46,038 bases of DNA from the NCBI GenBank assembly GCA_018700525.1, contig JABITN010000236.1, positions 1 through 46,038 on the forward strand, in the 5' to 3' direction. The position numbers were made by a program, and so were the translations under genes. The DNA comes from Opitutales bacterium. Its GTDB lineage: Bacteria; Verrucomicrobiota; Verrucomicrobiia; Opitutales; Opitutaceae. Under the pieces are notes generated by a model. It had not been told where the DNA came from, made no database searches, and saw only the letters and a list, made by a program, of their open reading frames with translations. Below, piece after piece: positions 4,268 through 45,339 of this stretch (positions within the stretch are counted from its first letter, which is position 1; each line of letters begins with the position of its first letter).

Positions 4268-4597
4268 GCGGGTTTTAATTGCAGAGGGTCAAGCGGTGGT
4301 TTCTCGGCATTCGCGATGTCTATTTGGGAGAGAAATTGGCCTGAAGTGGGTTGCAGTGCGGGAGAGTGAAAAATATCTCATTAGATGTTCTTATTTAGGA
4401 ATTGGTAGGGTCATTCTCTTTTCCTGGGGTATTTCCTGTGGTCGAGTAGGCGGGCTAATGAAATTGAAATTTCATTAAAATGAATCTGAATAGGAGCCAT
4501 TTTTGCTTCGTCTGAATGCCCGGAAAGCGCTTATATGGCATCTGGAGTCAGTTCTTTATGCGTCGCAGCGCTTAGAAATAAATCGAAAGGGAATGCT
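4268..4597. other. 330-base intergenic stretch
   Basis: This precedes the repeat-rich secreted protein gene. It contains one short perfect inverted repeat at 4457-4476 (AATGAAAT / ATTTCATT, 4-base loop), which could be an operator. A 60-codon frame at 4296-4478 has no recognisable features and I do not call it. No tRNA or clear terminator is visible. Confidence 0.4.
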
Positions 4598-7126
4598 ATG
4601 AAAAAATCATGCCAGGGGAATGAAGCAATGGGAATACTGAGGCTTGGGTCGTTATGCGTGATTTATGTTTTCTCGATTGTAGGGGAGTCCGCGCTATCGG
4701 CGGCTACACGCAGCCGCTCTCGGGTGCCGAGTTCGCCAGAAAGTAAATCGTCTTCATCTTCGAATATTCAGTCGACATCGAGACAGAGAAGTAGCGCTCC
4801 AAGCACGCCGTCTCCTTCTCGATCCGTCAGTCCAGCCCCTCGGACTTCGCGTTCGTCATCGCCTCCGCGTTCTGCTTCCCCATCTTCGTCACGCTCGTCG
4901 AGTCGTTCGCCAAGCGTTTCTCCTTCGCCTCGGTCATCTTCGTCTTCTTCATCGGGAAATTCCCGCAGTTCGTCTAGGTCGCAAGTTTCACCTTCCAGAA
5001 CTCCGAGTGCCTCGCTCCAGTCGAGCCGTCCATCGCATTCGCCCCCGAAGGTTTCGCCCTCCACAAGGTCATCTCGGACGCCTAGCGTTTCGTCGTCGCA
5101 AAGATCTTCGGCTCAGCCATCTTCTGGTTACTCTCGCTCGCGCTCTTCGTCTCCATCTTCTACACGATCGAGTTCTACTAGGCCTTCGGTTTCGCCTGTT
5201 CGTCCGAGCAGTACTCCTAGACAGGACGTTTCCACCTCTCGCAGTTCGTCTGGGTCGAGCAATGTAACTCGGTCGTCTGGTTCTGATTCTTCTAGAAGTT
5301 CGAGATCGTCTTCGACGATTCGTTCAAATAATAGTTCTTCAAGGCCAACCGTTTCTAGGCCCTCTTCAAGCGCGTCATTATCTCGGTCTCGGTCGTCTAG
5401 CCCAACGCCCCAAGCGACTCCGAGCCGCGCTCCAAACCGGCCTTCGGTATCGCCGAGTTTGAGTTCCAGGTCTTCAACGCGAGCCGTGTCCGAAAGCAGG
5501 CGATCTCGCGAAACGACGGTTCGTCCGGCACCTCAAACGAGGACTCCGAGTATCACCTTGGGCCAGGGGAGCGAATTGAAGAGTGGCATTTCTTTTTCGA
5601 GCAATCGGAATGTAGATACAAGGGGTATTAGTCGAGTGCGGACGCCGACATCGAATCGGCAAAATGGCGATCGATCGAATCCATTGGTTTTAGGCCCCAA
5701 AGATATCAGTGGAGAGGTTTCGAGTGCCGCCGGAATCTATGGAGAAAGTCGTACGCTTTCCCAGGATGTCTATCGCAACTCGCGAAGAGAGGTTAGCCAG
5801 CGTTCGACTGAGCGTCGCGAGAATGATCGAAATTCTGTGGTTGCGAGCGTAGCGAACAACCGTCCAGGCACTGGGAAGCGCATCGAGGCCCAAACGGCAA
5901 CGGTTGCGCCGCAAACGTCCACGATAGCTCCTCAGGTTGAGCATCGGTCGAAGCATGGGGAAAGTAGAGGTCCCGCTCGAATCGCTCATTTCGACGTGAG
6001 TCATAAGCACGTACATGGCCCTAGTTGCGGCCATCATAACTATAGCGGGCGGTGGCACGACTATCCGCGGTCTCATAGGCATGGCCCTAGCTGTGGGCAC
6101 CATTATTCAGGCGGTGCTTGGATTTCATTTTCGATTGGTCATAGGCATGGAGTAGGTTGCGGTCATTTCTACGAAGGTAGTCATTGGTTGTCGCATTTGG
6201 GCCATCACCACGTTCATGGAGTGAGTTGCGGTCATTATTACTACGATAGGCTCTGGTGGAATTATCCTCGTTTGCACTCTCATTTTAATGGATGTGGTCA
6301 TTATTACCATAACGATCGATGGCTGGATTTTCCGGTCGCTCACATTCATTCGTCAAGTTGCGGTCATTTGTATGATGGCTTGAGTTGGTATGCTCATGGC
6401 CATTCGGGGCATGTTCACGGGTCTAATTGCGGGCATTATTATTACGAACGGCGTTGGAATTCGTATCCGAGGAGGTACTACACGCGAAACCGTCACGAAA
6501 GCTTCTACTTTTTCGTGGATCTTGGTGACTATAGGCGTCGTAATGTTTCAACGCACGTTTACGAGCAGTCGCTTGATTATGGGAAGGAACCTGTGGATAT
6601 CTTCAATGATGAAGACGCCCTCAGTCGGGCCTACTCGGCATTCAATGCGGGAAAGTTTTACGAGTCGGTGATAGCGTTCAATCAAGCGATTGAGGAAGAT
6701 CCTGAAAATGGGGTTCTTTATATTGCTCGAGCTCAGGCGCAGGTAGCGATTAGGGATTACCGGTCGGCTTACGATGATTTGATCCTTGGCTTGGAAATGG
6801 TCCCGGAGTGGACCGAAGTCGAATTGAACTTAGCTGAGATTTACGGAAATCCTGATTGGTTTCAGGAGCATTACGATGAACTCAGCAATTGGGTCGGAGA
6901 GTATCCGAGAGACTATAAAGCGCATTTCGTTTTGGGTTACTTCCACTATTTTCGTCAGGATTACGATGCGGCTAAGAGCGAATTCGTTTACACGTTAGCG
7001 TGGGACGAATCGCATCTTCAAGCTAAGCAGTTAATGGAGTCTATTTTAGTTTTCGAAGCGGAAACGGAAGTCTTGGCGGCAGAGAATGAGGATTTGGAAA
7101 TCGCTCCGCCGGAGAAGGAGTTGTAG
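4598..7126 (+). CDS. secreted Ser/Arg-rich, His-Cys repeat and TPR protein
   Basis: I place the start at ATG 4598, where a signal peptide begins (MKKSCQGNEA, then a hydrophobic core to about residue 35) behind an AAAGGGA ribosome-binding-like sequence; an upstream ATG at 4535 is also in frame. The 842-residue product has three parts. Residues about 36-300 are low-complexity Ser, Arg, Pro and Thr, with dense RS and SS runs. Residues about 468-626 hold seven repeats of 21-24 residues with consensus HxHGxxCGHxYxxxxW. The C-terminal part (about 670-830) looks like tetratricopeptide repeats (AYSAFNAGKFYESVIAFNQA, then IARAQAQVAIRDYRSAYDDL). The His/Cys units look suited to metal binding; the TPRs suggest protein contact at the cell surface or in the periplasm. 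I know no characterised protein with this architecture, so the function is unknown. Confidence 0.85.
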   Translation: MKKSCQGNEAMGILRLGSLCVIYVFSIVGESALSAATRSRSRVPSSPESKSSSSSNIQSTSRQRSSAPSTPSPSRSVSPAPRTSRSSSPPRSASPSSSRSSSRSPSVSPSPRSSSSSSSGNSRSSSRSQVSPSRTPSASLQSSRPSHSPPKVSPSTRSSRTPSVSSSQRSSAQPSSGYSRSRSSSPSSTRSSSTRPSVSPVRPSSTPRQDVSTSRSSSGSSNVTRSSGSDSSRSSRSSSTIRSNNSSSRPTVSRPSSSASLSRSRSSSPTPQATPSRAPNRPSVSPSLSSRSSTRAVSESRRSRETTVRPAPQTRTPSITLGQGSELKSGISFSSNRNVDTRGISRVRTPTSNRQNGDRSNPLVLGPKDISGEVSSAAGIYGESRTLSQDVYRNSRREVSQRSTERRENDRNSVVASVANNRPGTGKRIEAQTATVAPQTSTIAPQVEHRSKHGESRGPARIAHFDVSHKHVHGPSCGHHNYSGRWHDYPRSHRHGPSCGHHYSGGAWISFSIGHRHGVGCGHFYEGSHWLSHLGHHHVHGVSCGHYYYDRLWWNYPRLHSHFNGCGHYYHNDRWLDFPVAHIHSSSCGHLYDGLSWYAHGHSGHVHGSNCGHYYYERRWNSYPRRYYTRNRHESFYFFVDLGDYRRRNVSTHVYEQSLDYGKEPVDIFNDEDALSRAYSAFNAGKFYESVIAFNQAIEEDPENGVLYIARAQAQVAIRDYRSAYDDLILGLEMVPEWTEVELNLAEIYGNPDWFQEHYDELSNWVGEYPRDYKAHFVLGYFHYFRQDYDAAKSEFVYTLAWDESHLQAKQLMESILVFEAETEVLAAENEDLEIAPPEKEL

Positions 7127-7211: not shown

Positions 7212-7661
7212 CTATGCGCCGCCTCCGCCGCGGGGTCCTCGTGGACCGCCTTGCCCACCAGCTCCACCTCGACCTCGGTTTCCGCCAGCTCCTTGAGCCA
7301 TTTTGCCGAATTCTTCTTTTGAAAGTTCGCCGCTTTCATCTGCGTCGGCCTGCTTGAAGACTACGGCCATGCGTTCTGTCATTTGCGCTTTCATAGCGGC
7401 TGGATCTCTTCCTCCGCCACGTTGCCCGCCGCCGCGTTGGGGGCCTTGTCCCCCTCGGCGAGACATTTGCTCTAATCGGCTATTGACGAGCTCTTCTAGG
7501 GTTACTCCGCCGCTTTTGTCTTTGTCGGCCAGGGCGAATTGATCGGGCCGTTCGCGGTTGCCACCTTGTCCGCGCTGCGGACGTTCAGCGTCTTGGGCGT
7601 TAAGGGTGGAGCTGTTGACCAAGGCTAGGGCTGATAAAAGCGCAATGGTTTGTATCTTCAT
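7212..7661 (-). CDS. secreted EF-hand protein with Gly/Arg-rich tail
   Basis: I start it at ATG 7661 because a signal peptide begins there (MKIQTIALLSALALVNSSTLNA), although the open frame extends upstream to 7790. The 149-residue product has two EF-hand calcium loops, DKDKSGGVTLEE and DADESGELSKEE, separated by a Gly/Arg/Gln-rich linker and followed by a Gly/Arg-rich tail. Calcium binding in the periplasm or outside the cell is the reasonable role. Such small EF-hand proteins are frequent in PVC bacteria, usually without known partners. The next gene on this strand lies about 160 bases upstream, so co-transcription is possible but not shown. Confidence 0.8.
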   Translation of the reverse strand: MKIQTIALLSALALVNSSTLNAQDAERPQRGQGGNRERPDQFALADKDKSGGVTLEELVNSRLEQMSRRGGQGPQRGGGQRGGGRDPAAMKAQMTERMAVVFKQADADESGELSKEEFGKMAQGAGGNRGRGGAGGQGGPRGPRGGGGA

Positions 7662-45262: not shown

Positions 45263-45339
45263 GGGGTAGTAGCTCAGTTGGTTAGAGCGCCTGCCTGTCA
45301 CGCAGGAGGCCGCGAGTTCAAGTCTCGTCTATCCCGCCA
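45263..45339 (+). tRNA. tRNA-Asp(GTC)
   Basis: A 77-base cloverleaf folds by eye: acceptor GGGGTAG with CTATCCC, D-arm GCTC/GAGC, anticodon stem CCTGC/GCAGG with loop CTGTCAC (anticodon GTC, Asp), and T-arm GCGAG/CTCGT with TTCAAGT. Discriminator base G and encoded CCA follow. The 4-69 acceptor pair is G-U. Confidence 0.96.

Follow-up and report, generated by a model that had tools for sequence, protein, structure and literature searches.

A lineage-restricted array of His/Cys units in a probably exported TPR protein of the Opitutaceae, with metal binding as its likely reading

What might seven tandem copies of a short His- and Cys-containing unit do in a bacterial protein, between a Ser/Arg-rich stretch and a TPR domain? 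The question is raised by a gene of an Opitutales bacterium, a relative of the marine genus Pelagicoccus, found in a stretch of 46,038 nucleotides (contig JABITN010000236.1, positions 1 to 46,038) that we call the window and in which all coordinates are given. In the open-licence literature, a search with the motif string HGxxCGH gave no match, a search for His-rich Cys repeats in Verrucomicrobia gave none, and nothing on the window protein was found among the matches listed.

Layout of the encoded protein

The gene occupies positions 4598-7126 (+) as one open reading frame of 842 codons, with an ATG at 4598 and the stop at 7126, as seen from the translation and from matches in genomes of the family. 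The ATG is preceded by GAAAGGGA, and both the start and the ribosome-binding-like site are common to the ortholog in G003. The translation of 842 residues confirms the layout given in an earlier, sequence-only reading, i.e. a Ser/Arg stretch followed by seven units and then by TPRs. Residues 1-36 (4598-4705, +) form a probable Sec signal peptide, a hydrophobic stretch that ends in LSA/AT as judged by eye, and the N-termini of relatives are similar. Based on this signal-like N-terminus, the protein, which had been called secreted, is probably exported.

The following residues 37-310 (4706-5527, +) make up a low-complexity stretch rich in Ser, Arg and Pro, with 122 Ser, 38 Arg and 34 Pro among the 264 residues from 37 to 300. 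The stretch is basic and contains 42 Arg and 2 Lys vs. 2 Asp and 3 Glu. Is it a domain of the kind found in eukaryotic SR proteins, to which it had been likened? The likeness holds for the composition: the window protein has 52 SR/RS dipeptides vs. 40.7 in shuffled sequences (p 0.01), and in its best 50-residue segment 40% of the residues lie in SR/RS dipeptides and 74% are Ser or Arg. However, an excess over shuffled sequences was found in only four of the seven proteins tested and was absent in those of G001, Pelagicoccus mobilis and G029. SR proteins are described as carrying one or two RNA-binding domains (PF00076) and an RS domain of at least 50 residues with more than 40% RS content (PMC9456285). 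The window protein has the Ser/Arg-rich stretch in common with them, but its dipeptide content is borderline and inconstant in relatives, it is probably exported, and TPR models are all that Pfam lists for the full-length protein up to E 1, with no RNA-binding domain. Because this domain is absent, membership of the SR proteins is excluded, and with the probable export and the modest, inconstant dipeptide excess we reject a eukaryotic-type RS domain as the function. We read the stretch, which is 35-55% identical in four distant pairs, as a disordered basic spacer.

The conserved C-terminal domain (6503-7123, +) starts with an FYFFVDLG segment and continues with TPR helices, as delimited from an 11-member alignment, Pfam TPR matches, a structural model and its PDB matches. 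Its mean column identity is 72% in nine members and 66% in eleven. Taken alone, the domain of the window protein just reaches the Pfam TPR_2 cut-off (27.1 vs. 27 bits), and within the whole protein it scores 20.1 bits, below the cut-off; the C-terminal domains of 11/11 members match TPR_2, TPR_8 and TPR_17 at E up to 0.01. In a 375-residue model, the TPR helices have a pLDDT of 70-93 over most of residues 201-360, with 50-65 at 271-290. The PDB matches of this model are all TPRs, the best with Z 10.8 (rmsd 9.2, 119 residues) and 2avp with Z 10.5 (1.5 Å over 67 residues), and Z values below about 13 are common for helical repeats. The Pfam matches and the model support a TPR fold for this domain, in agreement with the TPRs named in the earlier reading.

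Conservation and loss of the repeat units

Between the spacer and the TPR domain, the motif reading places an array of seven units of 22-23 residues at 5999-6466 (+). The unit cores lie at 6008-6055, 6074-6121, 6140-6187, 6209-6256, 6275-6322, 6341-6388 and 6410-6457 (all +), with their Cys at residues 477, 499, 521, 544, 566, 588 and 611. We compared 17 distinct members of the protein family, the window protein included, over the array and the TPR domain (for the G429 protein, the part read does not reach the N-terminus). Six or seven Cys units are present in 14 members from two genera, seven in the genus of the window and seven in that of Pelagicoccus mobilis and G029. The units follow each other at 22-23 residues in both genera, with a 33-residue step in G029 as the single exception. 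Judged by this recurrence in 14 members at regular spacing, the array is more than chance.

How constant is the motif itself? We picked 97 units in 15 members by the pattern CxHx6W, so that the Cys, the His at +2 and the Trp are true by construction; 94 of these units retain the Cys together with the three His. The His at -6 is present in 96, that at -4 in 95 and the Gly at +1 in 94. The Gly at the fourth motif place is present in only 53 of the 97. Of the seven HxHGxxCGHxYxxxxW repeats described before, the array has thus proved real and recurrent, but the fourth-place Gly is not constant, and the motif is therefore better written HxHxxxCGHx6W. When each unit of the window protein is compared with those of five relatives, the unit at the same position is the best match, or shares that rank, in 31 of 35 cases (7/7 in G003 and G007, 6/7 in G004 and G002, 5/7 in P. 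mobilis), so that the array most likely predates the split of these lineages.

At the codon level, the H, H, C, G and H positions of the motif are free of non-synonymous change in four of the seven pairs compared (window protein/G003, G002/G010, G007/G004 and P. mobilis/G029). Their pN is 0.011 in G002/G004 and 0.023 in window protein/G007, with three to six per cent of residues changed in both. Values for the other array codons in those pairs are 0.03-0.26, and their change exceeds that of the motif codons in 6/6 pairs with intact arrays; in the closest pair, G002/G010, their dN/dS is about 1. In G007/G009, in which the G009 array is degenerate, the motif codons are only 60% identical (40% changed). 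Taken together, the codon comparison shows purifying selection on the motif codons.

Some members have nearly or wholly lost the Cys units, yet keep the TPR domain. This applies to 3 of the 17: G009 has two units, none with Cys, G022 has one intact and three degenerate units, and G429 has a single unit without Cys. By their genus labels, G022 and G429 belong to one genus and G009 to that of the window. In G005, also of the window's genus, the gene is almost gone, with a 3' remnant of about 68 codons (L085) that contains stop codons and lies between intact neighbours. The TPR-domain gene tree is too poorly resolved to count the array losses. Since three members have lost it, the array is dispensable. 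This counts against a trap that the cell cannot do without, and would suit a structural module or a metal buffer needed only under certain conditions. The same losses, in members that are poor in array and keep the TPR domain, could also mean that the array has no essential function and is kept by descent, decaying in some lineages, while the TPR domain does the work. We regard such an idle array as improbable; it agrees poorly with the purifying selection on the motif codons and with the regular spacing in two genera.

Cysteines, aromatic residues and a possible metal site

Does the distribution of the Cys residues indicate their role? The window protein has seven Cys beyond residue 60, every one inside a unit. 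Of the 14 intact arrays, 12 have seven Cys in their units, and those of G001 and G029 have six. Extra Cys occur singly, near or in the TPR domain in G007 and G010, in an SCYH segment between units in four Pelagicoccus-group proteins and in an NCWH segment in G029; G001 has six Cys in all. It is conceivable that these residues form disulfides within or between molecules and cross-link an envelope mesh, with the His being incidental. Probable export to an oxidising compartment and one regularly spaced Cys per unit would suit such a mesh, as would the Cys count past the signal region, which is even in seven of the 14 intact-array members, in some of them with an added Cys between units or near the TPR domain. 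The total is odd in the window protein and six others, and the seven unit Cys in 12/14 arrays likewise count against pairing; as an odd total is found in only 7/14 members, however, parity argues little against disulfides. Also against disulfides stand the three flanking His, which are conserved like the Cys and which disulfides do not need. We give this cross-linked arrangement little credence.

A small beta-hairpin is weakly predicted for the unit. In the 375-residue model, a hairpin follows CGH in six of the seven units and is shorter in unit 6, with an array pLDDT of 29-45, and a 69-residue three-unit model (42 rows) has a hairpin in 3/3 units at a mean pLDDT of 42.5; overall, the pLDDT of the array is about 29-50. 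The length of the unit resembles that of other aromatic hairpin repeats. Could the hairpins then bind a polysaccharide or another envelope polymer via a Tyr/Trp face, with the His and Cys in a secondary role, stabilising or lineage-specific? Indeed, Trp at +9 is present in 62/62 units when these are picked by C[GR]H alone (11 members), and five of the six Cys-less units in G009, G022 and G429 retain the aromatic hairpin with its Trp (counted by eye), which keeps polymer binding alive as an explanation. On the other hand, His and Cys are about as constant as Trp in intact arrays, and a scan of nine arrays against Pfam, up to E 10, yielded no wall- or sugar-binding repeat. We consider polymer binding as the main role of the array unlikely.

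Metal binding by the repeats, as proposed in the earlier reading, is likely the best reading of the array. It is favoured by the four potential ligands kept in 94 of the 97 units, by the confinement of the mature Cys of the window protein to the units and by His-rich runs before the array in the Pelagicoccus group, where the preceding 100 residues contain 6-16 His (3 in the intact-array members of the window's genus). Against it stand the loss of Cys units in 3 of 17 members and the one gene remnant. On balance, we find it fairly probable that the array binds metal. The further proposal of a surface metal trap goes beyond the evidence: the array is lost in three members, and a Pfam scan of the seven neighbouring genes found no transition-metal transporter or chaperone. 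A physiological role in metal buffering seems doubtful to us, and a structural role of the metal is likelier than a buffering one.

How could such a protein work? We propose that the H-x-H-x3-C-G-H knuckle of each hairpin would hold one transition-metal ion, most likely Zn(II), via its three His and one Cys. One ion per unit is suggested by the strict conservation of these residues, and Zn is preferred because a mixed Cys/His set of four ligands is typical of it. The seven hairpins would then form a metal-stapled array in front of the TPR domain, which may dock a partner, while the disordered Ser/Arg/Pro spacer would probably stick to anionic envelope polymers; the array itself would serve outside the cytoplasm as a scaffold or buffer loaded with metal. 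An exported envelope protein of the Pelagicoccus group with a metal-stapled hairpin array before its TPR domain is our best explanation overall, and we put its chance at just under even. To the narrower proposal of a previously uncatalogued 22-23-residue beta-hairpin module, binding one transition-metal ion via H-x-H-x3-C-G-H and arranged seven times as a metal-stapled rod in an exported Pelagicoccus-group protein, we hold more tentatively, with a confidence some way below even.

Zinc knuckles and zinc ribbons have a Cys-Gly turn that leads into a beta-hairpin, and the units are alike in this respect. They differ in having one Cys each and no CxxC; the mature window protein has no Cys outside the units, and none of the Pfam zinc-finger models matches the nine arrays. 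The array is therefore not counted among zinc ribbons or knuckles. Among surface proteins, those of the streptococcal polyhistidine triad (Pht) family have several short beta-strand units with the His motif HxxHxH, and Zn binding and handover are reported for them (PMC3842936). Several short units with a His motif are a common trait of Pht and the window protein, and Pht proteins, which bind Zn at the surface, act much as the earlier reading pictured for the window protein. HxxHxH lacks the Cys of HxHxxxCGH. The triad occurs twice in the window protein, both times spanning unit borders, and at 0-4 places in the 17 members, i.e. multiple HxxHxH triads do not form the repeat motif here. Because the motif differs and the array of the window protein has no Pfam match, we treat Pht as an analogy and not as a family to which the protein belongs.

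If each unit does bind one metal, the exported protein would carry a metal-binding repeat that is both very small and regular, and the array would be a natural subject for structure work and for metal-binding scaffolds. It would also hint at the role of the His/Trp-rich middles in similar exported low-complexity/TPR proteins. If metal binding fails, what is left is still a repeat family that is confined to this lineage and not modelled in Pfam or NCBIfam.

Distribution, similar proteins and gene neighbourhood

Is the repeat found outside this lineage? The whole gene was matched in 18 of 252 genomes of the family, one of them with the remnant, and in 3 of 49 genera. In the genus of the window, 9/11 genomes match at E up to 1e-10, the G005 remnant being among the nine, and matches were found in 7/8 genomes of the genus of G029 and in 2/2 of that of G022. 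The N-terminal part of the gene runs off the contig edge in G006, beside the syntenic Gfo/Idh gene. G008 (85% complete) gave no match to the gene and, at E 1e-50, none to the Gfo/Idh neighbour either. Named relatives with the protein are Pelagicoccus mobilis and the MAG Opitutaceae bacterium ANT-100. A model of the unit, run against 387 genomes drawn from the phylum, matched four. In three of them the match is this protein, and in the fourth it is marginal (E 0.009 over 14 positions of a 40-residue frame). The model scores the seven units of the window at 28.8-42.4 bits, which is not independent because these seven are among its 34 units. Genome-search hits in G018, G026 and G044 are ordinary TPR proteins.

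A match to a known family was looked for as well. Nine arrays compared with Pfam up to E 10 gave only AtpR in one of the nine (E 0.097) and nothing for the array of the window protein, and the arrays have no match in NCBIfam; neither collection holds a model of the repeat. A profile search of solved structures with the array returned two viral spike chains (E 0.46 and 0.62), which we take as chance. On plasmids, a query of array plus TPR domain gave seven weak matches, mainly to the TPR part and none reaching 80% query coverage, and a query with a protein of family f23, described below, found none. In terms of its sequence relatives, the repeat family is real and lineage-restricted, has no model in Pfam or NCBIfam and belongs to a layout with parallels.

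These parallels come from f23, another family of the class, in which we read 11 proteins (L055-L057, L065-L068, L077, L078, L080 and L081) from seven genomes of the genera g74, g76 and g82. Up to three copies occur per genome, and in G295 and G349 two lie 3-7 kb apart. Like the window protein, they have a signal-like N-terminus, basic low complexity (glycine-rich, or Arg with Pro/Ser/Thr/Gly), a His/Trp/Tyr-rich middle and an alignable TPR domain, which aligns end to end with that of the window's family at 24-28% identity and one two-residue gap. In contrast, they have no HxHxxxCGH units, their middle shows no tandem repeat, and a C-terminal GTW segment is added (GSW in 1/11). Is this a special kinship? 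A search with an 11-row model of the TPR domain of the window's family recovers three f23 proteins (5e-12 to 7e-9), but with them an ordinary TPR protein (8e-9) and, with more bits (52.1), a designed TPR. Because ordinary TPR proteins score similarly, kinship beyond the TPR fold is unproven. A TPR model that includes three f23 rows has matches with E up to 1e-12 in 19 of the 387 genomes. Seven of these genomes belong to f23, and their 11 proteins reach E 4e-39 or better, strong scores that arise partly by construction from the three rows; four weaker matches of this model, when read, were other TPR proteins. The architecture, earlier thought to be without a characterised counterpart, is thus rare but not isolated: another family of the class has proteins laid out in a similar way, and by comparison the Cys/His units are the special part of the window protein. 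Planctomycetes presumably carry similar exported TPR proteins. A search of the open-licence literature for planctomycete secreted TPR low-complexity proteins gave a single match, which concerned calpains.

The gene sits between a Gfo/Idh oxidoreductase and an EF-hand protein, in a neighbourhood of aminotransferase, sulfotransferase-like, DUF6370-like, Gfo/Idh, EF-hand, FG-GAP and DinB genes. According to tblastn over 11 loci, most neighbours are kept beside the gene or its remnant in eight loci of the genus as far as the contigs reach (Gfo/Idh in 7/8), and none was found in G029 or G022; in Pelagicoccus mobilis, a 40% FG-GAP stretch is the only neighbour match. The EF-hand protein (7212-7661, -), of the calcium type and with a Gly/Arg-rich tail, is convergent with the gene and syntenic in the genus; from its sequence, it points to calcium. 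DinB-type proteins often carry a metal site. A small Cys-containing protein with a signal-like N-terminus (2648-2968, -) is syntenic in the genus as well and scores 23.4 bits against DUF6370 (cut-off 25 bits).

In the intergenic region upstream of the gene (4268-4597, +), a MAFFT alignment of six upstream regions revealed short blocks common to six members of the genus, namely TGAATA, a CATTTTT run and TTTCGTCT, which are possible promoter or regulator sites. Together with the ribosome-binding-like site, these blocks suggest a transcription unit of its own for the gene. Positions 4268-4597 contain no sigma-70-like pattern and no Rfam match; the only Rfam match in the window is a tRNA gene at 45263-45336 (+).
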